DNA of 64,000 nt from Paenibacillus sp. FSL K6-0276 (GTDB lineage: Bacteria; Bacillota; Bacilli; Paenibacillales; Paenibacillaceae), in assembly GCF_037977235.1 (NCBI RefSeq), contig NZ_CP150276.1:1364001-1428000 (forward strand), given 5' to 3'. The notes below the pieces were generated by a model. That model was given only the letters and a program-made list of their open reading frames with translations, searched no databases and was not told the DNA's origin. The translations under genes and the position numbers were made by a program. Positions 3,013 to 37,382 of this stretch are shown here, piece by piece (positions within the stretch are counted from its first letter, which is position 1; each line of letters starts with the position of its first letter).

Positions 3013-3948
3013 ATGAAGGTAGGCGTAATTATGGGCGGGGTGTCCTCAGAGTATGAGGTTTCCATGAATAGTGGTAGAGAAATTTTGAAGAATCTAGATC
3101 CAAATAAATATGAAGTTACTCCAATAGTGATCACGAAGCGTGAAGAGCTTATTGAGCAGGCAAAAGGTATTGATATCGCGCTGCTTGCGCTTCATGGAGC
3201 TTACGGCGAGGACGGCACGGTTCAGGGAACGCTGGAGACGATGGGAATTCCGTATACGGGTAGTGGGGTTTTGTCTAGCAGCATTTGCATGGATAAAGAT
3301 CTCTCCAAAAAGCTTATGCGCTGCTCAGGCGTCAATACGGCAGATTGGCTGTGCTGGGATAGTATGAAGGATTATTCGGCAGAAGCGGTAGAACGGATCG
3401 GATATCCTGTTATGGTGAAGCCGTGTTCAGGCGGTTCAAGTATCGGAATGGAGAAGGTGAGCAGTAGCGAGGAATTGCTGAGCGCAGTACAGAAAGCTTT
3501 TGCCTGTGATCAGTCGATTTTGATCGAGAGCTACATTCAAGGCCAGGAAATCACATGCTCCATTCTAAATGGAGAGATGCTACCTATTCTGGGGATTACC
3601 TCGGCACATGCGGAGTGGTTCGATTACAGCGCTAAGTACGAAGATGGCGGGGCAGACGAACGGGTCATTGAACTGCCAGCTGAGGAATATGAGCGCGTGC
3701 GTGATGCAGCCTTAACTTGCTACAAAGCACTAAAATGCAGTGTGTATGCACGGGTGGATATGCTCATCAGGGATGGCATTCCATATGTGCTGGAGGTGAA
3801 CACGCTACCGGGCATGACGAAGGCGAGTCTTTTACCAAAAAGCGCGCAAGCAGCAGGTTACACCTTCAGCGGACTGTTGGACGAGATCATTTCCCTTTCC
3901 TTAACGGAAAAGAATCCGAAGGAAGAGGTGTTCAGCCATGTTAAATGA
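3013..3948 (+). CDS. ddl: D-alanine--D-alanine ligase
   Basis: This 311-residue ATP-grasp ligase makes D-Ala-D-Ala for peptidoglycan precursors in the cytoplasm. The N-terminal GGVSSEYEVSMNSG block, the ATP-binding MVKPCSGGSSIGMEKV block near residue 135, the substrate loop segment WFDYSAKYEDGG near 203 and the C-terminal EVNTLPGMTKASL metal/phosphate site are all present. The length fits the short DdlB-type class. The ATG at 3013 is preferred over the GTG at 3004 because AAAGAGGTG (2998-3006) then sits at the correct ribosome-binding distance. It follows the MocR regulator closely, and its 3' end overlaps the aminotransferase gene by 11 bases, so the three form an operon. Confidence 0.93.
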   Translation: MKVGVIMGGVSSEYEVSMNSGREILKNLDPNKYEVTPIVITKREELIEQAKGIDIALLALHGAYGEDGTVQGTLETMGIPYTGSGVLSSSICMDKDLSKKLMRCSGVNTADWLCWDSMKDYSAEAVERIGYPVMVKPCSGGSSIGMEKVSSSEELLSAVQKAFACDQSILIESYIQGQEITCSILNGEMLPILGITSAHAEWFDYSAKYEDGGADERVIELPAEEYERVRDAALTCYKALKCSVYARVDMLIRDGIPYVLEVNTLPGMTKASLLPKSAQAAGYTFSGLLDEIISLSLTEKNPKEEVFSHVK

Positions 3949-5101
3949 GTGGATTACTCCGCGTGTACGTGAGATTGCTCCCTCGGGGATTCGGGCTTTT
4001 TTTGACCTAAGTACGGGGAATCAGGATATTATATCGCTTGGTGTAGGGGAGCCTGATTTTGTTACACCGGAGCATGTAAGAGCTGCCTGTATTCGTGCCT
4101 TGAATAATGGGGAAACGATGTATACACCAAATTCCGGTTTATTGGAGCTTAGAGAAGAGATCGCTTCTTATCTGCACACAAGCTTCAATCTCCACTATGA
4201 GCCAACTAACGAGATTATGGTTACGGTGGGAAGCAGTGAAGCCGTGGATTTGGCTTTGAGGGCCTTCATTACACCTGGGGATGAGATTATCGTCCCTTCT
4301 CCGAGTTATATCGCGTATTCGCCGATTACCCATTTGAACGGGGGGGTTCCGGTAGAGGTTGAATCTTCAGCCGAGCAGGGTTTTAAGCTTACTGCTGAAG
4401 CGTTGCGGAAGGTGATCACCCCTCGTTCCAAGATTCTTATGGTTAATTTTCCGACTAATCCTACAGGAGCAGTTATGTCTTACGAAGATTGGTTGCCAAT
4501 TGCACAGATTGTAAAAGAGAATAACCTACTTGTCATTTCAGATGAAATTTATGCTGAGCTAACCTATGATAGTCAGCATGTCAGCATTGCCTCCCTTCCT
4601 GGGATGATGGAACGAACCATTGTCATTAGCGGCTTCTCCAAAGCATTCGCTATGACTGGCTGGAGAGTAGGTTATGCTTGCGGTAATCAGGAATTAATTG
4701 CTGCGATGCTGAAAATCCATCAGTACACTGCAATGTGTGCCCCGGTACTAGGTCAAATCGCTGCCATTGAATCACTGCGGAACGGTATGGAGCATAAGGA
4801 ACACATGAAACAATGCTTCGATGAGCGAAGAAAGCTGCTGGTTAGTGGATTTCGATCTATCGGATTGCCTTGCCATGAACCGGATGGAGCGTTCTATGCT
4901 TTTCCTTCGATCGCTCATACCGGACTGAAATCAGAAGATTTCGCTTTGCAGCTGCTTCGGGAGGTCGGAGTCGCCGCGGTTCCGGGTCATGTGTTTGGAG
5001 CAGGTGGAGAAGGGTATATTCGCTGCTCTTATGCAGCATCCTTACAAAAATTAACGGAAGCGCTGGAGAGAATCGAAGACTTTATGAAAGTGAAGTTGTA
5101 A
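3938..5101 (+). CDS. Class I/II PLP-dependent aminotransferase (alanine/aspartate type, YugH/AlaT-like)
   Basis: The 387-residue fold-type I aminotransferase contains SGIRAFFDLS at the N-terminus, the NFPTNPTGAV asparagine block, SDEIYAELTY, the PLP-lysine segment ISGFSKAFAMTGWRVGY and a C-terminal arginine in EGYIRCSYAAS. The sequence style resembles the Bacillus YugH/AlaT and PatA group. Because it overlaps ddl and follows a MocR regulator, supply of alanine for D-Ala-D-Ala synthesis is a reasonable inference. It is not the fold-type IV D-amino acid transaminase. Nor is it convincingly the cobalamin-pathway threonine-phosphate decarboxylase, despite its position between cobalamin genes. Substrate cannot be read from the sequence. 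Confidence 0.85.
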   Translation: MLNEWITPRVREIAPSGIRAFFDLSTGNQDIISLGVGEPDFVTPEHVRAACIRALNNGETMYTPNSGLLELREEIASYLHTSFNLHYEPTNEIMVTVGSSEAVDLALRAFITPGDEIIVPSPSYIAYSPITHLNGGVPVEVESSAEQGFKLTAEALRKVITPRSKILMVNFPTNPTGAVMSYEDWLPIAQIVKENNLLVISDEIYAELTYDSQHVSIASLPGMMERTIVISGFSKAFAMTGWRVGYACGNQELIAAMLKIHQYTAMCAPVLGQIAAIESLRNGMEHKEHMKQCFDERRKLLVSGFRSIGLPCHEPDGAFYAFPSIAHTGLKSEDFALQLLREVGVAAVPGHVFGAGGEGYIRCSYAASLQKLTEALERIEDFMKVKL

Positions 5102-5111
5102 TTCTAGTGGT

Positions 5112-5140
5112 CCCCATCTATCATAGATGGGGGCTTTTCT
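5112..5140 (+). terminator. Rho-independent terminator after the ddl cassette
   Basis: CCCCATCTA (5112-5120) pairs with TAGATGGGG (5124-5132) around a three-base loop, followed by GCTTTTCT. It separates the ddl cassette from cobT. Confidence 0.88.
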
Positions 5141-5193
5141 GTGTAGATAAGATAGAATAGGTTATACGGATTAATTTAATTGGAGGTTAAAAT

Positions 5194-6255
5194 ATGATTT
5201 CAACTATTCAAGAAGTAATTAAACGAATCACACCGGCTGATGAACAGTCTTTCCTAAAGGCGGAACACCGCTTGAACATTCTAACCAAACCACCGGGCAG
5301 TTTGGGACAATTGGAGACTCTGGCCGTTAAGCTCGCTGGAATTTCGGGTATGGAGCAGCCTAGTTTCACCAAACGAACGGTAGTTGTGATGGCTGCCGAT
5401 CACGGTGTATGCTGTGAGGCAGTTAGCGCATTTCCACAGGAAGTCACAATACAGATGGCCTATAATTTTCTCAGCGGAGGAGCGGCTGTGAATGTACTGG
5501 CACGCCAAGCTGGGGCTGAGGTAAAGTTCGTAGATATCGGTATTAACGGCGATCTTAGTCATGAAGATCTGATTGATCGTAAAGTGCGCCGGGGAACGGA
5601 TAATATGGCTGTGGGACCTGCGATGAGTCATGAGGAAGCGATGAGTGCTGTGCTTGTAGGTATAAGAGTCGCACAAGAAGCGATTGAGAACGGGACGGAG
5701 ATTTTTATTACAGGTGAAATGGGCATAGGAAATACAACGGCTAGTGCTGCCATTCTGTGTGCTCTAAAAGGAATAGCACCTGAAGCAGCCGTCGGAAGAG
5801 GAACGGGCATTGATGATGAACGTTTACTACATAAAATTGCAGTTGTGGAACGCGCTTTAAAGGTGAATCAACCGAATCCGGCAGATCCGCTGGATGTATT
5901 ATCCAAAGTAGGTGGACTGGAAATCGCCGGTTTGACCGGTCTGATTCTTGGAGCAGCCGCTGCCAGGATACCTGTCATTTTGGATGGTTTTATTTCGGGT
6001 GCGGCAGCTCTTGTGGCGAAGACACTTGCGCCAGAATCCATGGCCTATATGATAGGCTCCCATTTATCAGGAGAACAGGGACATAAGCTGATGCTGGAGC
6101 AGCTTGGGCTTGAACCGTTGTTTAACCTTGGTCTTCGTTTGGGAGAGGGAACTGGGGGCGTATTGTCTCTTCATTTAATTGAGGCGATATGCCGCATTTT
6201 GAGCGAAATGGCCACCTTTGAAAGTGCTGGCCTTTCTGGAGCTGGGAAACAATGA
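5194..6255 (+). CDS. cobT: Nicotinate-nucleotide--dimethylbenzimidazole phosphoribosyltransferase
   Basis: CobT transfers the ribose phosphate of nicotinate mononucleotide to dimethylbenzimidazole, making alpha-ribazole phosphate for the lower ligand of cobalamin. The 353-residue protein has the family blocks LTKPPGSLGQLE, VVVMAADHGV, GEMGIGNTTASAAI and the C-terminal RLGEGTGGVL that carries the catalytic glutamate. Length is normal for the family. GGAGG lies 8 bases before the ATG. The gene overlaps cobU by 4 bases (ATGA), so cobT-cobU-cobS is a translationally coupled operon. Confidence 0.96.
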   Translation: MISTIQEVIKRITPADEQSFLKAEHRLNILTKPPGSLGQLETLAVKLAGISGMEQPSFTKRTVVVMAADHGVCCEAVSAFPQEVTIQMAYNFLSGGAAVNVLARQAGAEVKFVDIGINGDLSHEDLIDRKVRRGTDNMAVGPAMSHEEAMSAVLVGIRVAQEAIENGTEIFITGEMGIGNTTASAAILCALKGIAPEAAVGRGTGIDDERLLHKIAVVERALKVNQPNPADPLDVLSKVGGLEIAGLTGLILGAAAARIPVILDGFISGAAALVAKTLAPESMAYMIGSHLSGEQGHKLMLEQLGLEPLFNLGLRLGEGTGGVLSLHLIEAICRILSEMATFESAGLSGAGKQ

Positions 6256-6800
6256 GTATTCTTGTAACGGGAGGCGCACGTAGCGGGAAGAGTGGTTTTG
6301 CAGAAAAACTGATGCAATCACTGACAGATCAGGCCTTCTATGTAGCAACCGGACAGGCTTTTGACGATGAAATGAAGGAACGGATTGCTCTGCATCAGCA
6401 TCAGCGTTTGGAAAGCGGATATGCTTGGGAGACGCTTGAAGAGCCCTATGATTTGCCAGATTTACTGAAGCGTTTATCTGGTGAAAAGGCGGTCCTCGTA
6501 GATTGCTTAACATTGTGGTTATCTAATGTACTGCTAGCAATGGAAGGATTTACGGATAGGCAAGAGTTGATTGAGAGCGAGATTACAAGACTTGAAGACA
6601 GTGTGCGTTCATTTCAAGGGAACCTCATTCTGGTCACTAATGAGGTTGGAGACGGTATTGTTCCGGAGTATGCGCTTGGCCGATTGTACCGTGATCTGGC
6701 AGGACGTATGAACGCGCTGCTTGCTCGGCAATGTGAGCAGGTTTTTCTAGTGACTGCTGGCATTCCAATTGAACTCAAGAGCAGGGAGTATCGTCTATGA
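6252..6800 (+). CDS. cobU: Adenosylcobinamide kinase/adenosylcobinamide-phosphate guanylyltransferase
   Basis: The bifunctional CobU enzyme phosphorylates adenosylcobinamide and then attaches GMP to give adenosylcobinamide-GDP. The 182-residue protein opens with a P-loop GGARSGKSGFAEKL, has DCLTLWLSNVLL near residue 80 and the characteristic TNEVGDGIVPEYALGRLY block near residue 125. The histidine that accepts GMP is expected in the ALHQHQR region (residues about 45-52). It overlaps both neighbours by 4 bases, as expected for the cobT-cobU-cobS order. Confidence 0.95.
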   Translation: MSILVTGGARSGKSGFAEKLMQSLTDQAFYVATGQAFDDEMKERIALHQHQRLESGYAWETLEEPYDLPDLLKRLSGEKAVLVDCLTLWLSNVLLAMEGFTDRQELIESEITRLEDSVRSFQGNLILVTNEVGDGIVPEYALGRLYRDLAGRMNALLARQCEQVFLVTAGIPIELKSREYRL

Positions 6801-7612
6801 GGGAGCGCAGGAATGCTGCCGCGGCTGCCTTTCAGTTTTTGTCTCGGTTTCCTGTAAAGAGTGATCCCGGATTTTCTCCTGAGCTCCTGCGCCGAAGTGT
6901 GCAGTTCTATCCCGTGGTGGGCGCAGCTATCGGACTGTGTGTAGCTGCTGGAGCAGCCTTGACTGGTCTTATTCTTCCGGCATGGCCAGCAGCTGTTATT
7001 ACCCTCATTCTGTGGGTAGGCCTTACTGGCGGCCTGCATCTCGATGGCTGGATGGACAGCGCGGATGGTCTGCTAAGCTACCGACCGAGGGAGCGAATAC
7101 TAGAGATTATGAAGGACAGCCGTGTGGGTGCGATGGGTGTACTCGCCTGCGTGCTGCTCTTGCTGTTAAAGGCCTCTTTAGTGGCAGCGCTAATCGAAGG
7201 CTACGCCTACTACGAGCTGCCACTGCTCTTGCTACCAGCGATCTGGAGCCGCTGGTACATGGTGCGGGCAATGGTGCGTTATCCCATTGCTCGAGGGAAC
7301 GAGGGGCTGGCCGCGAGCTTCGCCGGCCTCGCTCCCTCGCATGAGCGGCGCGCGCTGGCGATAGCCGCACTGCTCTCGCTAGCCGCAGCCGCTGCGCCTC
7401 TGGCGCTCGGCGCGGGCTTAGCCGCGTGGCCGCTGCATCTGGCGGCAGCGTTATTGCTGCCGGCTGCGGCCTTGGCCAGCGGCACCGTGGCTGCGCGGCG
7501 GATTAGCAGCCGGCTCGGCGGGCTCACCGGCGATGTGTACGGCGCGCTGAACGAGCTGCTAGAGGCTGTGCTGCTACTCGTGTTAGTACTGCTCCAGCAC
7601 AATTTCATGTGA
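6797..7612 (+). CDS. cobS: Adenosylcobinamide-GDP ribazoletransferase (cobalamin synthase)
   Basis: CobS is the membrane enzyme that joins adenosylcobinamide-GDP to alpha-ribazole (phosphate). The 271-residue protein has several hydrophobic helices and the metal-binding motif GGLHLDGWMDSADGLL near residue 75, followed by RILEIMKDSRVGAMG. The second half, encoded by about 7300-7570, is unusually GC-rich and alanine/leucine-rich compared with the flanking DNA, although the frame stays open and hydrophobic. The ATG overlaps the cobU stop (ATGA). No clear terminator was seen directly after it. Confidence 0.93.
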   Translation: MRERRNAAAAAFQFLSRFPVKSDPGFSPELLRRSVQFYPVVGAAIGLCVAAGAALTGLILPAWPAAVITLILWVGLTGGLHLDGWMDSADGLLSYRPRERILEIMKDSRVGAMGVLACVLLLLLKASLVAALIEGYAYYELPLLLLPAIWSRWYMVRAMVRYPIARGNEGLAASFAGLAPSHERRALAIAALLSLAAAAAPLALGAGLAAWPLHLAAALLLPAAALASGTVAARRISSRLGGLTGDVYGALNELLEAVLLLVLVLLQHNFM

Positions 7613-7757
7613 GTGGCTCCTGTGGGTGACGTTTTAGTAGCTAGCTTACTTCAATCTGGCTCGATCATCTACTGAAGCTTGCGGACCTAGATGACGTTAT
7701 ACCATTTGCTGCGAATAACATTTGTTTTTTTCGAGATAGATAGAGAAGAGGGATGAC

Positions 7758-10269: not shown

Positions 10270-10627
10270 ATTTCTCCCCCTTTTTATGGACAGCGAGTCC
10301 CCATTTCATTTTTGGAATGCATCATAAATCCCCTATCAACTGCTGGAGTGTGGCAACTCGCAATATATTCCATAGTTATGTAATATATCAACTAAATGGA
10401 TCGGGAATATAGGTGTTGGATTCTATTCTATAGAATTAACCTCTGGATGAATAGTGAAAATTTTGTTTTATAGAGCATATTTTTCTGAAAAAGATGAATT
10501 ATTACTGACACTTTTATTTTTAATAAAAAAATTGGTATAAATACCCAATCCGTAAACTCTCTATTTTGATGGATTGTTCGGCGACAGTGTGATAGAGTAT
10601 TAATGTTTTGTTCCAAACTTAATATAA
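10270..10627. other. Intergenic region between the chemoreceptor and the queuosine riboswitch
   Basis: This AT-rich spacer between divergent genes must hold the chemoreceptor promoter (minus) and the transporter promoter (plus). No clear SigA or SigD promoter could be assigned. A short palindrome TTCTATAGAA lies near 10426-10435. No coding frame with a ribosome binding site was found. Confidence 0.5.
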
Positions 10628-10668
10628 TCCGCGGTTCGTAACCATCCCGCGTAAACAAAACTAGGAGG
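10628..10668 (+). promoter_or_regulatory. preQ1-I riboswitch (translational type)
   Basis: Stem P1 is CGCGG (10630-10634) with CCGCG (10647-10651). The loop contains GTAACC, and the A-rich tail AAACAAAACTAGGAGG carries the ribosome binding site. This layout closely matches the short class I preQ1 aptamer of Thermoanaerobacter tengcongensis type, in which loop cytosines pair with the GG of the Shine-Dalgarno when preQ1 is bound. It lies 12 bases before a queuosine precursor transporter start. Confidence 0.9.
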
Positions 10669-10680
10669 AGTTTAAGTAAT

Positions 10681-11394
10681 ATGTTTAATTTGTTGTGGGG
10701 AGTTTTATTTGTTATTGTCAATTTTTCCTTTTTTCTACTCTGTTACCGCCTGTTCGGCAAAAGTGGAATGTATGCCTGGGTGGGTATCGCTACTGTAATT
10801 GCTAACATTCAGGTAGCTAAGACGATTGCTATGCCATTTGATATTGTGATGACACTAGGAAATACGATGTATGTCACTTTGTATATGACCAGCGATTTGC
10901 TTAATGAGAAGTATGGAAGAGCAGAAGCACGTAAAGCGGTTTGGTTTGGTTTCTTCACCTTGCTTATGACGACAGTCATTATGCAGATGGTACTAGTATT
11001 TAAGCCGCAAGAGACCGATATCGCTCAGTCTTCTTTGGAGACGATCTTTGGGCTGATGCCTCGATTAGCGTTGGGTAGTCTTACTGCTTACTTCATTAGT
11101 CAGTTCCTTGATGTTCGGTTGTACTCCTGGATTCGCAAATATTACAGCACCTCAAGTCAGTTGTGGGTTCGTTCCAACGGCAGTACGATGATTAGCTCCT
11201 TTGTGGATACACTAATCTTCTGTACCATTGCATTTACTGGTATGTATAACTGGAGTGTGTGGCTTGAAATTTTGCTTACAACGTATCTAGCGAAATTCTT
11301 ACTAACCGCAGTAGGCACACCTATCTTATATATCGCCCGAACTTTTACTTTTGCTGAAGATGGAACACCATCATCCGCTCAAAAGAAGGAATAA
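10681..11394 (+). CDS. yhhQ: Queuosine precursor transporter (YhhQ/VUT family)
   Basis: The 237-residue protein has about six membrane helices and the family block TSDLLNEKYGRAEARKAVWF near residue 75. VUT/YhhQ proteins import queuosine precursors such as preQ0 and preQ1 used for tRNA wobble modification. The preQ1-I riboswitch overlapping its ribosome binding site supports the substrate directly: translation should fall when preQ1 is plentiful. The AGGAGG of the riboswitch tail serves the ATG at 10681. It is followed by its own terminator, so the unit is monocistronic. Confidence 0.93.
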   Translation: MFNLLWGVLFVIVNFSFFLLCYRLFGKSGMYAWVGIATVIANIQVAKTIAMPFDIVMTLGNTMYVTLYMTSDLLNEKYGRAEARKAVWFGFFTLLMTTVIMQMVLVFKPQETDIAQSSLETIFGLMPRLALGSLTAYFISQFLDVRLYSWIRKYYSTSSQLWVRSNGSTMISSFVDTLIFCTIAFTGMYNWSVWLEILLTTYLAKFLLTAVGTPILYIARTFTFAEDGTPSSAQKKE

Positions 11395-11451: not shown

Positions 11452-11567
11452 CCAGTCGTAAGAGGGCTTGATCGTTCCATAAAAATGTGTACATAAAATT
11501 AATATAAAGCTAAAATAAGCTATCGTAGCAATTCTAATAGTATCCCTATGCAATTCGGAGGTTGAAG

Positions 11568-12122
11568 ATGAAGACAAAAGAGATGGTATTTGCCGCGTTA
11601 TTTGCTGCATTGATAGGGGCATTAGGCATGATACCACCTATTCCATTAGGCTTTATTCCAGTACCGATTACTGCACAGACCTTAGGTGTCATGTTAGCCG
11701 GCTGCTTTTTAGGAAAGAAGACGGGGGCACTTAGTTTGATTTTATTTATCGTATTAGTCGCTTTAGGTTTACCGTTATTGTCAGGTGGACGCGGAGGTCT
11801 ATCAGCATTGGTGGGTCCTTCTGCAGGATATGTTTTTAGCATGCCAGTTGCCGCATTTTGCATCGGTTATGCCACAGAAAAGGTATGGTCTTCGTTAAAA
11901 ATCTGGAAGATTATCGCTATTAACTTTGTTTTTGGGGTTGTTCTGGTTAGTTTAATAGGAGCGCCTGTGATGGCCCTTATCACGCACACCTCAGTCTGGG
12001 CCGGACTTGTGGGGGCGATTGTATTTTTACCGGGAGATTGTATAAAAGCTATCATTGCTGCCTTTATTGCTCTTCAACTAAAAGCTATCAGTCCGATCGA
12101 AGAGAGTGTACATAATCGGTAG
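11568..12122 (+). CDS. bioY: Biotin transporter substrate-binding subunit BioY
   Basis: BioY is the membrane S component that binds biotin and works with an energy-coupling-factor module. The 184-residue protein has six hydrophobic helices and the family blocks IPLGFIPVPITAQTLGVMLA and LSGGRGGLSALVGPSAGY. GGAGG at 11557-11561 fits the ATG at 11568; a TTG six bases earlier is less likely. Dedicated ECF ATPases and EcfT lie later in the same operon. No classical BirA operator (TTGTTAAC-type palindrome) was found in the 110 bases upstream, so biotin control is not shown by the sequence. Confidence 0.93.
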   Translation: MKTKEMVFAALFAALIGALGMIPPIPLGFIPVPITAQTLGVMLAGCFLGKKTGALSLILFIVLVALGLPLLSGGRGGLSALVGPSAGYVFSMPVAAFCIGYATEKVWSSLKIWKIIAINFVFGVVLVSLIGAPVMALITHTSVWAGLVGAIVFLPGDCIKAIIAAFIALQLKAISPIEESVHNR

Positions 12123-12153
12123 TCACAGAAATTAAGAACAGGTGTGATCAAGG

Positions 12154-13635
12154 ATGAATCTAGTAGTTCCTATACTGCGTCATGCAGCACAACAGCCCGA
12201 CAGCATTGCCTTAACCCATGACCAAGCAAGCCATACCTATGCCACATTAGTAGAAACGATGCGGAGAATCGCGAATGGTCTACAGCAAAAGGGTTTGAGG
12301 CATGACAAAATTGCTATTTTATCTACGAATCGCATTGAATTTGTTGAGGTTTTCTTGGGGGCTATTTATGCAGGCTGTGTTCCCATTCCTTTAGATCCCA
12401 AGTGGAGTGCAAATGAACTGCAGGTTATTATAGAGCAGTGCCAGCCGAGAATGATTTTTGCCGAGCTGGAAGCTGCAAGGAATTTGGTCTTCAAGGACCA
12501 AGCCATCCCAACACTGACTTTCTCAAAAGATCGAACAGGTTCCTATGATCAGTGGCTGGACGCGCTGAAGCCAGAGGCTGAATTGGATGATACGAACGAG
12601 TTATTATTTATCGGCTTTACTTCAGGCACAACTGGGTTGCCCAAAGGATATATGCGTACCCATTTATCATGGTTAAAAAGCTTTGAGGTATCGAATGCTG
12701 CCTTTGAATTGGACCCTATGAAGGATGTTTTAGCACCGGGTCCGTTTGTGCATTCCCTGTCCTTATTCGCTGTAATGCAGAGTCTGTATTGTGGAGCAAA
12801 CTTTCATATCACGCAAAAATTTAGCGCCACGCAGGTGTTAGAACTGTGCAAGCAGATTCCGGGTGTGGTGCTGTTCGTTGTACCGACAATGCTCGAATCC
12901 ATGATGCAGCAGGCTGTTCCTGGGCAGACACAAATTGATGCGATTATTAGCTCAGGTGCAAAGTGGTCGGAGTTGTCCAAAAAAAGGGGCATGGAAGTGT
13001 TCGCTGGCGCGCGTCTCTATGAATCCTACGGTTCCTCTGAAGCGAGCTATATTAGTTATTTGGATGTTCTGGCGGAACACAATCCGAACTCTGTAGGCAA
13101 GCCCTATCCTGGGGTGCAGATTTCCATTTGTGATGAACAGTTCCGTGAAGTCCCTGCGGGGGAGATTGGGCAGTTATATGTGCGAAGTGATATGATATTT
13201 CTAGGCTACCATCAATTGCCGAATGAGACTGCAGCAGCTTTTCGAGACGGATGGCTGATCCTTGAAGATTATGTTTATCAGGATGAAGCTGGCTATTTAT
13301 ATCTGGCGGGTCGCTTGAATAATAGAATCATATCCGGTGGGCTGAACGTTTATCCAGAGGAAATAGAACGAGTGCTGGAGCATCTTCCGGAAATACAAGA
13401 AGTAATGGTGCTTGGCATCCCTGACGATTACTGGGGAGAACAGTTGACAGTCCTTGTGAAATGGAACGGAGAAAAGCGCTTATCTATAGACGAAATAAAG
13501 AATTATTGTCGCCAGTATTTAGCAAGCTACAAAGCGCCGAAGCAGCTGCTGACGGTAGATGAGTTTATCTATACAAGCAGCGGCAAAATTGCCCGGCAAG
13601 CGATGAAAGACTATGTGAAAAGAGCGATGGTATGA
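12154..13635 (+). CDS. AMP-dependent acyl-CoA synthetase (YhfT-like)
   Basis: This 493-residue ANL-superfamily ligase activates a carboxylic acid through an acyl-adenylate and forms the CoA thioester. Seen in order are the P-loop FTSGTTGLPKGYMRTH near residue 153, YESYGSSEAS near 289, the ribose-binding aspartate region GWLILEDY, the hinge GRLNNRIISGGLNVYPEEIE and the C-terminal catalytic lysine in YTSSGKIARQAM. The TGD motif is modified to LED. Bacillus subtilis has a similar yhfS-yhfT-yhfU set (thiolase, acyl-CoA ligase, BioY type). The acyl substrate is unknown; a short dicarboxylate is an inference from the biotin context. Its stop overlaps the thiolase start. Confidence 0.87.
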   Translation: MNLVVPILRHAAQQPDSIALTHDQASHTYATLVETMRRIANGLQQKGLRHDKIAILSTNRIEFVEVFLGAIYAGCVPIPLDPKWSANELQVIIEQCQPRMIFAELEAARNLVFKDQAIPTLTFSKDRTGSYDQWLDALKPEAELDDTNELLFIGFTSGTTGLPKGYMRTHLSWLKSFEVSNAAFELDPMKDVLAPGPFVHSLSLFAVMQSLYCGANFHITQKFSATQVLELCKQIPGVVLFVVPTMLESMMQQAVPGQTQIDAIISSGAKWSELSKKRGMEVFAGARLYESYGSSEASYISYLDVLAEHNPNSVGKPYPGVQISICDEQFREVPAGEIGQLYVRSDMIFLGYHQLPNETAAAFRDGWLILEDYVYQDEAGYLYLAGRLNNRIISGGLNVYPEEIERVLEHLPEIQEVMVLGIPDDYWGEQLTVLVKWNGEKRLSIDEIKNYCRQYLASYKAPKQLLTVDEFIYTSSGKIARQAMKDYVKRAMV

Positions 13636-14783
13636 TAGAAGCAGTAATTGTCATGGCAAAACGTACACCCATTGGCAGGATGGGCGGCTTATTAAGTACA
13701 TTTGAGCCGGAAGCATTACTGGCGCCGCTTATTCAGCATATTGTGGCAGAAACGAACCTGCCTATAGATATGATCGATGATGTCGTTATTGGAAATGTTG
13801 TCGGTCCGGGTGGAAATATTGCACGGGTAGCTGCGCTTGAAGCGGGGCTGCCTGTCTCGGTTCCGGGTGTTACAGTGGATCGTCAGTGCGGCTCTGGGCT
13901 GGAGGCGATCAATATAGCTGCACGACTTATTCAAAGCGGCGCAGGGGAGATTTATTTCGCGGGCGGCGTGGAAAGCACGAGCCGTGCCCCCTGGAAAATG
14001 GCTAAGCCCCAAACCTTGATGGGTGTTCCACAGCTATATACCCGTGCTCATTTTACGCCTAGCTCTTACGGTGATCCAGATATGGGGATTGCTGCGGAAA
14101 ATGTAGCGCGGAAGTACGGAATTTCGCGAGAAGAGCAGGATCAATATGCCTTGAAAAGCCATCAGAAAGCCGTTCATGCTCAGCAAAGTGGCCGGTTTCA
14201 GCAGGAGATTGTACCTCTACAGATTGAGGGGGAGTGGGTGCATACCGACGAATGTCCAAGAGCCAATACGAGCCTGGACAAGCTGCGAAAGCTGCCTACA
14301 ATCTTTGAAGAAAAGGGTACCGTCACCGCTGGAAATGCCTGTCCTATTAATGATGGTGCGGCGCTTCTATTAATGATGTCCCGTGAGAAATGTCGGCAAC
14401 TCAAGCTCAAGCCTATTCTGCGTGTCGTGGATGCGCAAGCGGCAGGTGTAGATCCGAACTATTTAGGCATGGGACCAGTTCCAGCTGTACAAAAGGTGTT
14501 ACATCGTCAACAGCTGACAATAGCCGATTTAGATATAGTAGAGTTTAATGAAGCCTTTGCTTCGCAAGTCCTAGCCTCACTGAATGAGCTTCAGATCCCA
14601 CAGGAAAAGGTTAATCTTGGAGGGGGCGCATTAGCTATCGGTCATCCATATGGGGCATCCGGAGCTATTTTAATGACGCGCTTATGTGCTGAAATGCAGC
14701 ATGCCCCTTATAAAAGAGGGCTTGCTACGCTGGGTATCGGCGGTGGTATCGGCCTCGCGACCCTCTTGGAGGCGGTAAAATGA
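13632..14783 (+). CDS. Thiolase-family acetyl-CoA C-acyltransferase (YhfS-like), C-terminal cysteine replaced
   Basis: The 383-residue thiolase condenses or cleaves acyl-CoA with acetyl-CoA. The nucleophilic cysteine is present in DRQCGSGLEA (near residue 87), as are NEAFASQ (near 305) and the catalytic histidine in GHPYGASGA. The usual C-terminal catalytic cysteine, normally in a TLCIGGG-type motif, is replaced by glycine in LATLGIGGGIGLA. This may change the chemistry or substrate. Length is normal and the frame is intact. ATGA overlaps at both ends couple it to the ligase and to the next hydratase subunit. Confidence 0.88.
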   Translation: MIEAVIVMAKRTPIGRMGGLLSTFEPEALLAPLIQHIVAETNLPIDMIDDVVIGNVVGPGGNIARVAALEAGLPVSVPGVTVDRQCGSGLEAINIAARLIQSGAGEIYFAGGVESTSRAPWKMAKPQTLMGVPQLYTRAHFTPSSYGDPDMGIAAENVARKYGISREEQDQYALKSHQKAVHAQQSGRFQQEIVPLQIEGEWVHTDECPRANTSLDKLRKLPTIFEEKGTVTAGNACPINDGAALLLMMSREKCRQLKLKPILRVVDAQAAGVDPNYLGMGPVPAVQKVLHRQQLTIADLDIVEFNEAFASQVLASLNELQIPQEKVNLGGGALAIGHPYGASGAILMTRLCAEMQHAPYKRGLATLGIGGGIGLATLLEAVK

Positions 14784-15181
14784 ATAGTGTCCGACATCAG
14801 ATTCTTATGACTACTGAGTGGTTATCGGACTATGCTCAGAGTATTGAGGCACCCGTGCAGACGATTAATGGTAATCTGATTGCTCCTTCTACGATGCCTA
14901 TTATTTTTTGGCAGGCCTTCGATATTCCTTGGCTTAGTAAGGGAGAATCTTTGCTTCACGGCACTCAGAAATTCTCATATCAAGCTCCGATTACGGCAGG
15001 GATGACGTTAGATTGTGAATTAGCGTTAACGAGCAAGGTGCAAAAAGAAGGCCGGCAGGGCAAGCTGACCTTTTACACACATACGCTGATTTGTAAATGT
15101 GAGGGCGAGCTTATAGTCACCGCAGAAACGGTGTTAATTCGGGTAGGTGATGATCACGATGAAAAAATGCATAACTGTTGA
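14780..15181 (+). CDS. MaoC-like N-terminal hot-dog protein, probable non-catalytic hydratase subunit (HadA-like)
   Basis: This 133-residue single hot-dog protein resembles the FAS1-type/MaoC N-terminal dehydratase domain. The segment LHGTQKFSYQAPITAGMTL is typical of substrate-binding halves. It lacks the D..IH hydratase motif found in the next gene. In mycobacterial HadAB and eukaryotic two-domain hydratases, such a half pairs with a catalytic half, so the two adjacent genes probably encode a heterodimeric (3R)-hydroxyacyl dehydratase. It overlaps the thiolase by 4 bases and the next gene by about 23. Confidence 0.75.
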   Translation: MNSVRHQILMTTEWLSDYAQSIEAPVQTINGNLIAPSTMPIIFWQAFDIPWLSKGESLLHGTQKFSYQAPITAGMTLDCELALTSKVQKEGRQGKLTFYTHTLICKCEGELIVTAETVLIRVGDDHDEKMHNC

Positions 15182-15497
15182 AGCCATCCGGCAATATGCA
15201 GTAGCTTCCCAAGATCTGGCCGCTATTCATCTAGATGAGGATGCTGCAGCCAAGGCTGGATTTAAGCGGCCCATCGCGCATGGGATGTATCTTATGGGAT
15301 TAGCCCAATCCTTATATATTGCGGAGCATAGGGCACAGTGGATCACTGAGTATGAGATGAAATTTCATCAGCCTGTAGAGGTCGATAATGTCGTGATTTT
15401 TGATTTTGCGGAGGATGACTGCCCTGTGAAAGTGACCCTTACAACAGAAGCTGGCGATCTTATTGCAACGGGAGCTTTTTCAGTGAAAGAGGTGTAG
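15159..15497 (+). CDS. MaoC-family (3R)-hydroxyacyl dehydratase/enoyl hydratase, catalytic subunit
   Basis: This 112-residue hot-dog protein carries the R-hydratase signature: YAVASQDLAAIHLDEDAA with the catalytic Asp and His, then KAGFKRPIAHGMYLMGLA. It would interconvert (3R)-3-hydroxyacyl and trans-2-enoyl thioesters. The ATG at 15159 is preferred because AGGTGATG lies six bases upstream; in-frame GTG and ATG codons at 15147 and 15150 lie within that site. It probably pairs with the preceding HadA-like subunit. The ketoreductase gene starts two bases after its stop. Confidence 0.85.
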   Translation: MKKCITVEAIRQYAVASQDLAAIHLDEDAAAKAGFKRPIAHGMYLMGLAQSLYIAEHRAQWITEYEMKFHQPVEVDNVVIFDFAEDDCPVKVTLTTEAGDLIATGAFSVKEV

Positions 15498-15499
15498 TA

Positions 15500-16321
15500 A
15501 TGAACAAAGTAGCCTTAATTACTGGAGCGACAAGAGGGATCGGGCGCAGTATCGCCGTGCAGCTTGGGAAGTCCGGTTATATAGTGATTGTTAATGGCAC
15601 GAAGCAAGCGTTAATCGATGAGGTTGTGTGCAAGATTCGCCATGCAGGCGGTGAGGCGTTAGGGTACTCTGCTAATGTAGCAGATCCAGTTGCGGTCACT
15701 GCAATGGTGGATGAGGTTATTGCTCGATATGGCCGTATTGAGGTATTGATAGCTAACGCTGGGAATTTGCAAGATCAGAAATGTCTACGGATGACGGATG
15801 AAGAGTGGAAGGCTGTTCTGGATGTGCATCTAAATGGTACCTACTACAGCATTCAACGAGTACTTCCGTATATGCGCCAGACAGGTGGCGATATCCTGTT
15901 GATGACCTCTATGGCTGGACTAACAGGTTCCGTGGGTCAGGTGAATTACAGTGCAGCCAAGGCTGGAATACTCGGAATGATGTGGACGCTCGCAGCCGAG
16001 CTGAAGCGTGATCAAATTAGGGTCAATGCGATTTCACCAGCCGCTTTAACGGATATGACCAGACCTGTCATTGATCATTTGAAAGAGAAACATGCCAGTC
16101 GTAATGAACCGTTCCCGGAGTTCTGGCGAATAGGTGCTCCAGAGGATATTGCTTCCTTCGTAAGTGCATTATTGAGGGAGAGCGATGCGGATTTAACCGG
16201 TGAAATCTTTGCTGTGAATGGATCAAGGGTGACGAAATGGGAGAAGCCTGCACCTGTATTTTCTGAGAACAGCATTGAGGCATTTTTCGCTACTTGGCAC
16301 CGTCAAAAGGGGAGTGAATAA
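15500..16321 (+). CDS. SDR-family 3-oxoacyl reductase (FabG-like)
   Basis: This 273-residue short-chain dehydrogenase has the NAD(P)-binding TGATRGIGRSIA, the NAG motif in LIANAGN, the catalytic serine in LLMTSMAGLTG and YxxxK in VNYSAAKAGILG. FabG-type enzymes reduce 3-oxoacyl thioesters to (3R)-hydroxyacyl thioesters, matching the stereochemistry of the adjacent MaoC pair. The C-terminus extends about 25 residues past a usual FabG (EKPAPVFSENSIEAFF), which is unexplained. AAGAGGTG lies 6 bases before the ATG. The EcfA1 gene begins immediately after the stop. Confidence 0.86.
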   Translation: MNKVALITGATRGIGRSIAVQLGKSGYIVIVNGTKQALIDEVVCKIRHAGGEALGYSANVADPVAVTAMVDEVIARYGRIEVLIANAGNLQDQKCLRMTDEEWKAVLDVHLNGTYYSIQRVLPYMRQTGGDILLMTSMAGLTGSVGQVNYSAAKAGILGMMWTLAAELKRDQIRVNAISPAALTDMTRPVIDHLKEKHASRNEPFPEFWRIGAPEDIASFVSALLRESDADLTGEIFAVNGSRVTKWEKPAPVFSENSIEAFFATWHRQKGSE

Positions 16322-17122
16322 ATGCTTACCTTCGATAAAGTTCATTTTTATTATAAAAAGGGTCAGCCTGTCTTAGAGGATATCAGCTTTACGATAGAAG
16401 CAGGGGAGTTTGTGGCGATTGTTGGCGCTAATGGCTCTGGCAAATCCACCATTGCAAAGCTAATGGACGGATTGCTACTGCCGCGAAAAGGGTCGATACA
16501 GTTTAAGGGCTTAGACACCGAAAATCCAGCTGATCTTGCAGGTATTCATCAGCAAATCGGCTTTGTCTTTCAAAATCCAGAGGATCAATTTATCACCACA
16601 ACCGTTATGGATGAGGTGCTTTTTGGTTTGGAGAACATTCGTGTGCCGAGGGAGGAGATGCGCAGCCGATTAGATCATGCCTTGCAGGCCGTTCATATGG
16701 AGGATTATCTGGAGGCCATGCCTCATCAGCTATCTGGGGGGCAAAAACAACGGGTCGCTATTGCGGCTATTTTGGCGATGCGCCCGCAAGTCATTATTTT
16801 TGACGAGGCCACCTCTATGCTTGATCCTCAGGGAAGACAGCAGGTTCTTGCCATTATGCAAGAGCTGCATCGTCAAGGTCTGACCATTATTCAGATCACT
16901 CACCATATGGAGGAAGTGCTTTCAGCAGAACGAATATTACTCCTGCATCAAGGGCGACTTGAGTTTGATGGTGATCCAATGGCTTTTTTTGAAACGATGC
17001 CTGTTGCGGACTATCAATTACAACTGCCTTTTGCAGTGCGTGTACATGCATTGCTCCATTCAGCAGCGCCGCCAACAGCCGATTGGAAGGGGATAATTCG
17101 ATCACAATGGTCTACCAATTAG
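16322..17122 (+). CDS. ecfA1: Energy-coupling factor transporter ATPase EcfA1
   Basis: This 266-residue ATPase drives vitamin uptake with EcfT and an S component such as BioY. Walker A is GANGSGKSTIAK, the Q-loop is FVFQNPEDQF, the signature is LSGGQKQRVAIAA and Walker B is VIIFDEATSMLDP, with an H-loop in ITHHMEEV. It begins directly after the ketoreductase stop. These copies differ from the usual ribosomal-protein-linked ecfAA'T set, and their place in the bioY operon suggests a dedicated biotin module (BioM-like). Confidence 0.92.
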   Translation: MLTFDKVHFYYKKGQPVLEDISFTIEAGEFVAIVGANGSGKSTIAKLMDGLLLPRKGSIQFKGLDTENPADLAGIHQQIGFVFQNPEDQFITTTVMDEVLFGLENIRVPREEMRSRLDHALQAVHMEDYLEAMPHQLSGGQKQRVAIAAILAMRPQVIIFDEATSMLDPQGRQQVLAIMQELHRQGLTIIQITHHMEEVLSAERILLLHQGRLEFDGDPMAFFETMPVADYQLQLPFAVRVHALLHSAAPPTADWKGIIRSQWSTN

Positions 17123-17964
17123 ATAATTTAAGTGTGAACTATGCGGATCATATGGCTTTGCACAATATAAACTGCACCATTACTACGGGCAAATGGATTT
17201 CGATTATCGGTCCAACGGGAGCAGGAAAGTCTACCTTTGTCAAAGTGCTGAAGGGCTTGATTCCCACCGTAAAAGGAGACTATTGGATTGATCAGCAGCC
17301 TGCTCGCAGAGATGCGAAAGGGCAATTAAAGGTCGTCCCTGAGCTGGGCTTCGTGTTTCAATATCCGGAGCATCAGCTATTCGAAACCACGGTGTATAAG
17401 GAGCTTGCTTTTGCTATGAATCAGCAGGGCGCTTCACGGCAGCAAATTACGGAGGCGATTGACAGGATTTTGCCGCAAGTGGGTCTGCCAGAAAAGATTC
17501 TCCCGTTAAATCCATTCCAATTAAGTGGTGGGGAAAAGCGCCGTGTAGCTATTGCCTCCGTGCTGATGACGAATCCGAAGGTGCTAATTTTAGATGAACC
17601 CACAGCGGGACTTGATCCAGCTAGCCAAGTATTTCTACTGAAGCTGCTGAAGTCATGGCAACAACAAAACCAGCGCACCCTTCTCTTCGTCTCACACCAG
17701 ATGTATGATGTTGCCGAATACTCGGATGAGGTTTTGGTTTTTCACAAAGGTCAGCTAAAGGGGCATTATGACACCAGAACATTATTTCTGGAAAAAGAAG
17801 AATTATTAGTGGAACTCGGCTTGTCTATGCCTGAACCCGTACAGTTTTTGAAGTTAGTAGAGGAACTATCCGGCCAAAAAATTGAGATTGCTAGCTGCAA
17901 AGAGCAGGATATCTTCGATGCTGTTCTGCCGATTTGGCATTCGAGGGGGCAAGGACATGGCTGA
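17107..17964 (+). CDS. ecfA2: Energy-coupling factor transporter ATPase EcfA2
   Basis: The second ATPase of the ECF module has 285 residues with Walker A GPTGAGKSTFVK, Q-loop FVFQYPEHQLFE, signature LSGGEKRRVAIAS, Walker B VLILDEPTAGLDP and H-loop FVSHQMYDV. The ATG at 17107 gives a normal N-terminus; GGAAGGGG lies rather far upstream (13 bases). A TTG at 17083 is possible but lacks a site. The gene overlaps the end of ecfA1 by 16 bases and the start of ecfT by 8. Confidence 0.91.
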   Translation: MVYQLDNLSVNYADHMALHNINCTITTGKWISIIGPTGAGKSTFVKVLKGLIPTVKGDYWIDQQPARRDAKGQLKVVPELGFVFQYPEHQLFETTVYKELAFAMNQQGASRQQITEAIDRILPQVGLPEKILPLNPFQLSGGEKRRVAIASVLMTNPKVLILDEPTAGLDPASQVFLLKLLKSWQQQNQRTLLFVSHQMYDVAEYSDEVLVFHKGQLKGHYDTRTLFLEKEELLVELGLSMPEPVQFLKLVEELSGQKIEIASCKEQDIFDAVLPIWHSRGQGHG

Positions 17965-18760
17965 TTCCGTAATAGTGGGTCAATATGTGGAGACGCATTC
18001 GATTTTCCATCGTTTAGATCCTCGTATAAAGCTTGTTAGTATCGTGCTTCTCATGCTTAGCTTTCTGATGCTTGGAACGGGACTTAGCTATGCAGTTGCG
18101 ACCTTTTTTGTGTTCGGAATTTTGCTGCTGACGAAAGTTCCTATTCATTTCTTCTGGCGAGGGCTGCGGCCGCTATTATTTATTTTGTTGTTTACCTTTC
18201 TGTACAATGCCGTGTTTACCAAAGGAACGGTCCTCTGGTCATGGTCGTTTATTGAAGTGACTGAAGAAGGATTGCGAACAGGATTACGTTTTGTTTGGCG
18301 TATAATATTGCTCATCTTATTAGCCTCAATATTAACGTTAACTACTAAACCGCTAGACTTAGCATATGGTCTTGAAAAGTTGCTGTCCCCTCTATCCAAA
18401 TTGGGGGTACCCGTAGAACAATTCTCCTTAATGATAGTGATTGCGATCCGTTTTATTCCTACCATCAAGGAGGAGCTTGATCGTATACTTCTCGCACAAA
18501 AGGCTAGAGGGTATGATCTTACAGCATTATCACTGCCTAAACGGATATTTGCTTATATCCCGATCATTATTCCTTTGCTTTTCACGACGATTCAACGTGC
18601 TGAACAGCTGAGCTATGCGATTGATGCGCGTGCTTATGGAAATGGTAAAGGGAGAACTTCTTATAAGCGATTGCAATTTCAGCAAATAGATTATCTGGTA
18701 GGGGGAGTTGCCCTTATATTTGCTGTGATTCTGCTGTTGTTAAAGATAGGAAAGGTGTAG
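17957..18760 (+). CDS. ecfT: Energy-coupling factor transporter transmembrane protein EcfT
   Basis: EcfT is the membrane scaffold linking the two ATPases to the S component. The 267-residue protein starts with the typical GQYVETHSIFHRLDPRIKL, has about five hydrophobic helices and two coupling-helix motifs, AQKARGYDL and AIDARAYGNG. The ATG at 17957 is chosen because it follows GAGGGGGCAAGGAC and removes an unrelated polar extension from an ATG at 17882. It completes a full BioMNY-like transporter with bioY. Confidence 0.92.
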   Translation: MADSVIVGQYVETHSIFHRLDPRIKLVSIVLLMLSFLMLGTGLSYAVATFFVFGILLLTKVPIHFFWRGLRPLLFILLFTFLYNAVFTKGTVLWSWSFIEVTEEGLRTGLRFVWRIILLILLASILTLTTKPLDLAYGLEKLLSPLSKLGVPVEQFSLMIVIAIRFIPTIKEELDRILLAQKARGYDLTALSLPKRIFAYIPIIIPLLFTTIQRAEQLSYAIDARAYGNGKGRTSYKRLQFQQIDYLVGGVALIFAVILLLLKIGKV

Positions 18761-18766
18761 ATGAAG

Positions 18767-19732
18767 ATGAAATGGAACACCCGTATTAGGGAGTTATTAC
18801 ACATAGAATATCCTATTATTCAAGGTGGGCTTGCTTATTTAGGTTATGCAGACCTCGCAGCTGCAGTTTCGAATGCCGGTGGATTGGGTCAGGTCACAGC
18901 GATGAGTCTTCCGAGTGCAGAGGCTTTACGTTCAGAAATAGAACGGGTACGAACTTTGACGGACAAGCCATTTGGTGTTAATTTTGCCATTGGTGTGCAT
19001 GGTATTGGTTATGAAGATCGGGTGCAGGTCGCAATCGACGAGCAGGTTCCCGTGGTTAGCCTCACCGGAGGGAATCCTGCCCCTATACTGGAAATGCTTC
19101 AGCTCACCGATATTAAAACGCTCGTGCTCGTCTCTTCACGCAGACAAGCCCAAAAAGCTGAACAACTAGGCGCGTCTGCGGTTATTGTTGTTGGGCAGGA
19201 GGGAGGAGGCCACTTGGGACGTGATGATGTTGGGACTATGGTGCTCGTTCCTCAAGTAGTTGATGCGGTTGATATTCCTGTGATTGCTTCAGGCGGGATC
19301 GGGGATGGCCGCGGATGGATGGCTGCCCATGCTTTGGGGGCGGAGGGAGTTGAAATGGGCACACGATTCGTTGCTACGGTTGAATGTGTTCATGCAGCTG
19401 CTTCTTATAAAAAAGCCCTAGTAGAAAGCTCAGAGTCAGATACAGTCGTAATCAAACGTTCCATCGGAGCACCTGCGAGAGTATTACGTAGTGACTACAT
19501 TGATAAAATTCTTGAAATTGAGCGCGTGACACCGACCTATGAAGCATTAAAAGAATATATCAGTGGTGCAGCCAACAAGCGTTGGATTTATGATGATATC
19601 AAAGAAGAGGGCATTGGTTGGGCAGGCCAAGTGACAGGAATGATCCATGATATTCCTACGGTCTCGGAGCTGATCGGCAGGATGGTCAAAGAAGCAGAGT
19701 CGATTCGTAACCAGTGGGGAACACAGGCATAA
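18767..19732 (+). CDS. FabK-like FMN-dependent enoyl reductase / nitronate monooxygenase family protein
   Basis: This 321-residue TIM-barrel flavoprotein belongs to the FabK/2-nitropropane dioxygenase family. It starts PIIQGGLAYLGYADLAAAVS and has VVGQEGGGHLGRDDVGT, LVPQVVDAVDIPVIASGG and GTRFVATVEC. FabK members reduce enoyl-ACP with FMN; others oxidise nitronates, and motifs alone do not fully separate them. The glycine-rich GGHLGR segment and the acyl-metabolism operon favour an enoyl reductase. AAAGGTG (18751-18757) fits ATG 18767; ATG 18761 is the alternative. It is the last gene before the operon terminator. Confidence 0.8.
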   Translation: MKWNTRIRELLHIEYPIIQGGLAYLGYADLAAAVSNAGGLGQVTAMSLPSAEALRSEIERVRTLTDKPFGVNFAIGVHGIGYEDRVQVAIDEQVPVVSLTGGNPAPILEMLQLTDIKTLVLVSSRRQAQKAEQLGASAVIVVGQEGGGHLGRDDVGTMVLVPQVVDAVDIPVIASGGIGDGRGWMAAHALGAEGVEMGTRFVATVECVHAAASYKKALVESSESDTVVIKRSIGAPARVLRSDYIDKILEIERVTPTYEALKEYISGAANKRWIYDDIKEEGIGWAGQVTGMIHDIPTVSELIGRMVKEAESIRNQWGTQA

Positions 19733-19740
19733 ATAAAAAC

Positions 19741-19793
19741 AAACAGAGCGGCGATTCTCTCATTATTGGAGGAATCGCTGCTCTCTGTTTTTG
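19741..19793 (+). terminator. Terminator at the end of the bioY operon
   Basis: AAACAGAGCGGCGATTC (19741-19757) pairs imperfectly with GAATCGCTGCTCTCTGTTT around a loop, followed by TTTTTGG. Confidence 0.85.
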
Positions 19794-19826
19794 GTCGATT
19801 GTAGAAGCCTTGCCTAAAATTCTTTT

Positions 19827-37249: not shown

Positions 37250-37382
37250 AATGGTCGCCTCCAAGTTGTTGTTGAAATAATCACACTCTTAATGTAAACC
37301 AACTCCAATTTTGAAGGTATAATCAAACCTTTTAGAGTGTATGGATTTTAGTCATTACGGTCCATATGTCTAGTTTTTAGAC

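Follow-up and report, generated by a model that had tools for sequence, protein, structure and literature searches.

A Paenibacillus operon linking a biotin transporter to a two-carbon acyl cycle: a candidate pathway for the rebuilding of side-chain-shortened biotin

The operon and its gene products

The window analysed here is a stretch of 64,000 nts from Paenibacillus sp. FSL K6-0276 (contig NZ_CP150276.1, positions 1,364,001 to 1,428,000), a genome of 6.1 Mb assembled as a single contig and 99.98% complete. Its + strand carries, between positions 11568 and 19732, ten genes arranged head to tail, from bioY to a gene encoding a FabK-like flavoprotein, which were delimited by open reading frames (ORFs) and profile searches (Table 1). 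An initial annotation of this DNA had described the same genes as one operon ended by one terminator, which the ORFs, the profiles and a downstream hairpin confirm, except that it counted nine genes while its own list names ten. The close spacing that it reported was also found, with -4 overlaps (ATGA) at two junctions and gaps of -23 to +2 at the others, except for the 31 bp that follow bioY. These gaps were computed with a MaoC start at 15162, although the sequence places the ATG at 15159. The terminator hairpin was not listed by a simple terminator scan.

Table 1. Features of the operon (positions in the window)
Feature	Position	Strand	Evidence
Promoter-like hexamers TGTACA-17-TAAAAT	11488..11516	+	9/12 matches; number of such sites at chance level
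bioY, S-component of the biotin energy-coupling factor (ECF) transporter	11568..12122	+	PF02632, 121.8 bits
Acyl-coenzyme A (CoA) ligase (ANL family, YhfT-like)	12154..13635	+	PF00501/PF13193
Thiolase (YhfS-like), displaced Cys	13632..14783	+	TIGR01930, 453 bits, over cut-off
HadA-like non-catalytic hot-dog subunit	14780..15181	+	HadA family, 32.7 bits, below cut-off
MaoC/HadB-like dehydratase subunit	15159..15497	+	PF01575, 61.3 bits
FabG-like short-chain dehydrogenase (SDR)	15500..16321	+	TIGR01830, 202 bits, below cut-off of 298
ecfA1, ATPase	16322..17122	+	TIGR04520, 323 bits, over cut-off of 315
ecfA2, ATPase	17107..17964	+	TIGR04521, 268 bits, below cut-off of 330
ecfT, transmembrane coupling protein	17957..18760	+	PF02361, 132.8 bits
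FabK/nitronate-monooxygenase-like flavin mononucleotide (FMN) protein	18761..19732	+	TIGR03151, 279 bits, below cut-off of 453
Intrinsic terminator hairpin	19733..19795	+	-30.8 kcal/mol, z -7.8

At E 0.001, the bioY product matches a single PDB sequence, the biotin transporter BioY (4dve). It is encoded beside EcfA, EcfA' and EcfT, the composition of a biotin ECF transporter with its own energising module. Gene content thus supports the earlier description of a complete set of ligase, thiolase, reductase, dehydratase and enoyl reductase combined with BioY and an ECF module. The codon bias of the operon genes (0.57-0.61) is below the median of 0.623 of the other ORFs of the window (p 0.001), which argues for a low-flux, vitamin-scale role.

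The best-scoring equivalog models are PRK07638 for the ligase (444 bits, under its cut-off of 518) and PRK06690 for the thiolase (435 bits, under its cut-off of 498), which we take to be the YhfT and YhfS models, respectively; hence neither protein reaches the yhfTS kind by these cut-offs, while the kinship to the Bacillus yhfTS-type genes that had been proposed is supported. In alignments restricted to rows with a nearly full-length match, the catalytic Lys478 of the ligase is present in 57 of 57 non-duplicate rows. Gramicidin synthetase is its best PDB profile match, followed by FadD5 and FadD13, matches that do not indicate the substrate, and its predicted model (mean predicted local distance difference test, pLDDT, 67.6) is too poor for the pocket to be judged.

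The MaoC protein retains a catalytic-type Asp and His (46/46 non-duplicate rows), and the HadA-like subunit lacks this pair, its model (pLDDT 89.3) matching best the chains of HadBC and HadAB. The two proteins therefore have the make-up of a HadAB-type dehydratase, in which a catalytic Asp/His subunit is joined by a non-catalytic hot-dog partner, with both scoring below NCBIfam equivalog cut-offs. ChsH1-ChsH2, presumably a hydratase acting on the short side chain of a large ring system, was also among the fold matches. Similarly, Ser137-Tyr150-Lys154 of the SDR are conserved in 49 of 49 non-duplicate rows, and His151 of the FabK-like protein in 37 of 38, the remaining one being masked. The latter protein, which matches best the FabK structure 7l00 and keeps the catalytic-type His while falling short of FabK membership by the TIGR03151 cut-off, is a probable enoyl-thioester reductase. 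The MaoC/HadA pair and the FabG-like and FabK-like proteins make this an enzyme set of the reductive type, and the operon genes include no acyl-CoA dehydrogenase.

The thiolase departs from its family. The nucleophile Cys86, Asn306 and His338 are invariant (60/60 rows, 52/52 without genomes fetched twice). The classical motif set (CxS, NEAF, GHP and CxG) is nevertheless incomplete, because the Cys of the CxG loop, which acts as acid/base in thiolases (PMC3406046, PMC6790690), is replaced by Gly368 in the same 60 rows (52/52). Position 237 is Cys in all of them (60/60 and 52/52); it lies in the GNAS/GNAC loop and, as aligned by motif, appears to be the counterpart of human T2 Ser284, a pantetheine-loop residue. 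Five solved thiolases used for comparison have Ser at position 237 and Cys at the CxG position, which is Ser in one entry. In a class-wide set (30 loci, at most one per genome, from 30 of the 89 matching genomes among 101), 8 thiolases combine Cys237 with Gly368 and 22 combine Ser237 with Cys368, with no exception (Fisher 1.7e-7, kinship ignored). The 8 comprise two operon copies, L192, L206 and four Staphylococcus-like genomes in which the ligase is adjacent; the L206 thiolase belongs to a bioY-ligase-thiolase-HadA-MaoC cluster (L225), whose HadA-like protein narrowly misses the Pfam cut-off. The acid/base Cys may thus have shifted loops; alternatively, the enzyme would no longer run classical Claisen chemistry with acetyl-CoA. 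The earlier suggestion of a full two-carbon round hence stands as far as the completeness of the enzyme set is concerned, but its condensing enzyme is non-standard. The paired Ser-to-Cys and Cys-to-Gly change allows thiolases of this mechanistically unusual class to be recognised from sequence.

In another locus, L220, a FabK-like protein (61%) is clustered at 3770-7649 with a distant ligase (27%) and a thiolase (54%) of the displaced-Cys type, with no bioY in the stretch read and no good BirA-type palindrome. This trio possibly has a different role than in the biotin operon.

Operon carriers, biotin synthesis genes and BirA-type operators

The ligase alignment (n=15, same genus) led to 51 named loci, of which 50 were used once L135, a 30% paralogue, had been dropped. 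Gene order recurs, all ten genes being found in 22 of the 50, which shows that the arrangement is not due to chance. Eight loci lack only fabK, six consist of exactly the six enzymes without the transporter, one of five enzymes without the transporter, and 13 of other subsets. Overall, all six enzymes are present in 30 of the 50 loci, and ligase, thiolase, HadA-like protein, MaoC and SDR are kept together in 40.

Biotin synthesis genes were searched in 57 distinct operon genomes, 19 of the same genus and 38 reached by name, ten that were fetched twice being counted once (the genomes of L093 and L106 were left out of the totals and L135 was excluded from the search). In the window genome, curated models gave no bioB, bioD or bioW over cut-off, the bioB matches being weak (33.8 bits at most). 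BioY is over cut-off in 57/57 genomes, and bioB was found over cut-off in only eight (0/19 of the same genus, 8/38 of the others), bioD in three and bioW in one. The window organism, a soil bacterium, is hence probably unable to make biotin. Among 61 genomes of the genus, 19 hold the operon ligase (at least 54% identity), 12 hold bioB over cut-off and none holds both (Fisher p 0.012, kinship ignored). This mutual exclusion is a tendency and not a rule, because P. gallinarum (L100) and P. contaminans (L104) carry both. In 11 of the 12 bioB genomes of the genus (L036-L047), bioD is missing. Such a bioB without bioD was interpreted as a sign of dethiobiotin salvage, and BioY-type transporters have been suspected of taking up biotin vitamers (PMC6593275). 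The lone bioB of the genus would thus be a second rescue route for a near-biotin compound, under the same type of operator.

The link with biotin proved stronger than had been claimed. A BirA-operator-like sequence, TTGTAAACC-N13..17-GGTTTACAA, lies upstream of the first gene with no more than 2 mismatches in 37 of the 50 named loci, whereas none of 40 shuffles per upstream region came below 4 mismatches. The other 13 loci show 3 to 8 mismatches, and some of the loci with more than 2, such as L132, still carry near-perfect palindromes of another spelling. In addition, birA is adjacent and divergent to bioY in seven of the 50, its product scoring above cut-off for the biotin-protein ligase domain and below it for a helix-turn-helix. 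The operator also precedes enzyme genes that have no transporter: among the seven transporter-less loci with at least five enzymes, five have at most 2 mismatches and two have 4. Hence the enzymes themselves, and not the importer alone, look to be under biotin (BirA) control in relatives. No operator was found in L130 (7 mismatches), a transporter-less contig of a metagenome-assembled genome with only ligase and thiolase. At the bioB loci of the genus, a palindrome search of whole loci on both strands, made without shuffle control, gave at most 2 mismatches in 7 of 12, at most 4 in 11 and 6 in the twelfth. In S. aureus, control of yhfS-yhfT by BirA was reported from reporter and gel-shift assays (PMC6391492), and experimental control of the homologues is described elsewhere (PMC7235819); a review states the same for yhfT-yhfS of B. 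subtilis (PMC11089781).

The window ligase is nearest, among the named relatives, to that of Paenibacillus sp. VTT E-133291 (93%). In addition to the operon bioY, the window genome encodes another BioY, whose neighbours are birA and a ligase remnant. This region (L084, 6352-8778, at 3.39 Mb of the same genome), which also has a BirA-type palindrome upstream, looks like the relic of another operon copy. In the ligase tree, four Psychrobacillus ligases group inside the Paenibacillaceae clade, so that the operon was probably transferred as a unit; in these ligases (L090, L094, L096 and L097), the conserved His200 within GPFVHSLSLF is replaced by Gln. An extra ORF of about 102-116 aa, absent from the window, stands between ecfT and fabK or after ecfT in L088 (16604-16930), L090, L091, L093-L096, L099 and L114. 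It was considered as a hidden thioesterase between ecfT and fabK, a possibility rejected since the product of the single ORF tested (L088) is a CHY zinc finger.

Control of the operon by a riboswitch was discarded, since the only Rfam match between 10600 and 20000, a PreQ1 aptamer, belongs to the neighbouring gene upstream. This PreQ1 riboswitch directly precedes a vitamin-uptake gene of the Vut_1 (YhhQ) type (10681-11394; 10625-11394 with the riboswitch), which, given the riboswitch, probably encodes a queuosine-precursor transporter. Farther along the window, 35669-37261 encodes an MCRA-family protein, presumably an oleate hydratase.

Candidate substrates and competing explanations

Gene content, conserved catalytic-type residues, the missing biotin synthesis genes and the predicted BirA control in relatives are the observations on which we tentatively favour one interpretation, at somewhat less than an even chance: the operon would be the biotin-acquisition module of an auxotroph that rebuilds biotin from side-chain-shortened forms by one two-carbon round. 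Bisnorbiotin and tetranorbiotin are known compounds equal to biotin minus two and four side-chain carbons, respectively, and microbes form bisnorbiotin. It is also described as a human urinary metabolite of biotin (PMC9106636). The predicted expression upon biotin shortage, the usual lack of synthesis, the linked importer and a possible two-carbon extension, taken together, point to such norbiotins, which retain the bicyclic ring, as likely substrates. BioY-EcfA1A2T would import biotin and, presumably, bisnorbiotin and possibly tetranorbiotin. The ligase would convert the shortened biotin into its CoA thioester, the thiolase would add an acetyl unit, the FabG-like SDR would reduce the 3-keto group to a hydroxyl, expected to be (R) from the enzyme families, the HadA/MaoC pair would remove water and the FabK-like flavoenzyme would reduce the double bond to yield biotinyl-CoA, from which some unlinked hydrolase would free biotin. 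One such round would turn bisnorbiotin into biotin. The substrate, direction and product of this pathway, as well as its final hydrolysis, are those that we infer.

Several observations weigh against this interpretation. Microbial assays were reported to fail to determine biotin metabolites (PMC9106636), implying that the organisms used in those assays, at any rate, are unresponsive to these compounds, and the norbiotin substrate is itself part of what we infer. The condensation is only putative, because the usual acid/base Cys is missing from the thiolase, and the operon encodes no thioesterase. The six-enzyme set is incomplete in 20 of the 50 named loci; four (L115, L117, L119 and L123) have a ligase without thiolase, and in the five ligase-without-thiolase genomes searched (G042, G058, G089, G091 and G093) no other region encodes a close thiolase (42% at best, or no match at E 1e-80). 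The exclusion of operon and bioB was tested without regard to phylogeny, its two exceptions lie beyond the 61-genome sample, and the eight operon carriers with bioB, five of which lack bioD, make it less than strict. One of them, L133/G107, has bioB, bioD and bioW in addition to ligase, thiolase, HadA-like protein, MaoC and SDR and may make its own biotin. Furthermore, the five nearest relatives found (L066, L067, L068, L083 and L085; ligase 92-93%) have no bioY in the operon, and their genomes (G001, G007, G023, which is 72% complete, G059 and G061) each encode exactly one BioY outside of it. A loss of bioY in these relatives is likelier than a gain in the window, since its last codons persist as a scar in L085. 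Finally, the biotin-responsive promoter proposed earlier holds as a prediction for the relatives and not for the window, where the upstream region has no BirA-type operator (8 mismatches, no better than shuffles). The operator is also absent in L085 and L128, and by this comparison the sub-clade of the window has lost it. With TGTACA-17-TAAAAT in its place, expression of the window operon may no longer follow biotin.

The initial annotation had placed the two-carbon round upstream of biotin synthesis, as an extension of glutaryl-CoA to the biotin precursor pimeloyl-CoA. The chemistry would fit, and glutaryl-CoA is known to be converted to pimeloyl-ACP (acyl carrier protein) by BioZ in alpha-proteobacteria (PMC7645780). 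However, the known path from pimeloyl-CoA to biotin is blocked where bioB is missing, as in 49 of 57 carriers, or bioD, as in 54; the window genome itself lacks bioB, bioD and bioW over cut-off and thus has no downstream bioB/bioD for this branch (bioF, bioA, bioI, bioC and bioH were not searched). This route is refuted as a source of biotin here, barring late enzymes without homology to the known ones, and it is the most improbable of the readings considered. The presence of the complete operon mostly in genomes without biotin synthesis likewise speaks against the synthesis of a precursor. The same enzyme classes could also work in reverse and break down biotin by beta-oxidation of its side chain. 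This is very improbable, and was rejected, as repression by biotin, such as is predicted, has the wrong sign for breakdown and the operon has no acyl-CoA dehydrogenase; moreover, most carriers need biotin.

The main rival among the remaining explanations supposes that, when biotin, and consequently acetyl-CoA carboxylase and malonyl-CoA, are short, the enzymes lengthen ordinary acyl-CoAs with acetyl-CoA by reverse beta-oxidation. It accounts for the BirA-type operators, for a thiolase in place of a malonyl-using synthase and for the co-transcription with the importer. We consider it unlikely: the codon bias is low for a bulk pathway, and the product would be acyl-CoA, whereas Firmicute phospholipid synthesis draws on acyl-phosphate and acyl-ACP. 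In addition, S. aureus shows membrane defects upon biotin limitation despite its BirA-controlled yhfS-yhfT, membrane fluidity being still raised in a bioA mutant under strict limitation, and earlier work cited there found that acc inactivation leads to fatty-acid auxotrophy (PMC12642757). Somewhat less improbable is a role centred on the ligase, which would trap an imported biotin compound as CoA thioester or adenylate, the other enzymes acting on some biotin-related acid. The ligase is common to all loci, partly by construction because they were found with it, and its motifs are intact in ligase-only operons, but this explanation leaves aside that ligase, thiolase, HadA-like protein, MaoC and SDR are so often retained jointly (40/50). 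The sequence does not specify the substrate, so that the same chemistry could also rebuild another biotin-related vitamer or make another short acid, which appears quite unlikely; no specific point speaks against it, the norbiotins being simply the known shortened forms.

With respect to the rebuilding of norbiotins, a somewhat bolder claim is held more tentatively still: the operon may represent a new vitamin-salvage pathway, in which a BirA-controlled, importer-linked two-carbon cycle acts, in bacteria unable to make biotin, on beta-oxidised biotin catabolites with a thiolase whose acid/base Cys left the CxG loop for the pantetheine loop. The yhfTS genes of Bacillus and of Staphylococcus would then encode this pathway in minimal form. 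Among the matches listed from the openly licensed literature, titles and abstract openings contain no proposal of norbiotin salvage. If true, biotin catabolites that are usually deemed waste would be a vitamin source for soil bacteria and perhaps for host-associated ones, and the complete form of the operon makes a growth test with a single compound possible.

Comparison with known systems

The closest known system is yhfT-yhfS of B. subtilis and S. aureus, likewise a BirA-controlled ligase and thiolase with BioY (bioY/yhfU) in the regulon. These members of the BirA regulon are described as putative or without a stated function (PMC6391492, PMC11089781). The Staphylococcus-like ligase-thiolase operons share the displaced-Cys thiolase beside the ligase and a MaoC-like neighbour, and by this arrangement, as compared with the Staphylococcus-like loci, the Paenibacillus genes are of the yhfTS kind. 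In these operons (L221-L224), two small ORFs follow ligase and thiolase; the second is MaoC-like (profile probability 92%), and the first gave no profile match to the HadA-like protein (probability 0.2). The Paenibacillus operon goes beyond yhfTS by its dedicated EcfA1A2T, a recognisable HadA/MaoC pair, the SDR and the FabK-like reductase, and differs in that its host genomes mostly lack biotin synthesis genes.

The lone bioB ascribed to dethiobiotin salvage is similarly a partial pathway found in auxotrophs of the same genus under a BirA-type operator, but it is a single radical S-adenosylmethionine enzyme acting on the ring; it was never found with the operon in the 61-genome sample, while five other carriers have bioB without bioD. 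The BioZ route also extends an acyl-CoA by two carbons for biotin, with malonyl-ACP as donor, but relies on an enzyme similar to β-ketoacyl-ACP synthase III and operates in biotin makers (PMC7645780).

Among single components, HadAB and HadBC, which serve mycolate synthesis in mycobacteria, and ChsH1-ChsH2, which acts on steroid side chains, are likewise heteromeric hot-dog dehydratases or hydratases matched by the HadA-like model, although with only 10-19% identity in the fold matches. Finally, reverse beta-oxidation cycles also combine thiolase, reductase, dehydratase and enoyl reductase on CoA esters, whereas the Paenibacillus operon is distinguished by its MaoC-type dehydratase, its FabK-like reductase and its non-standard thiolase.

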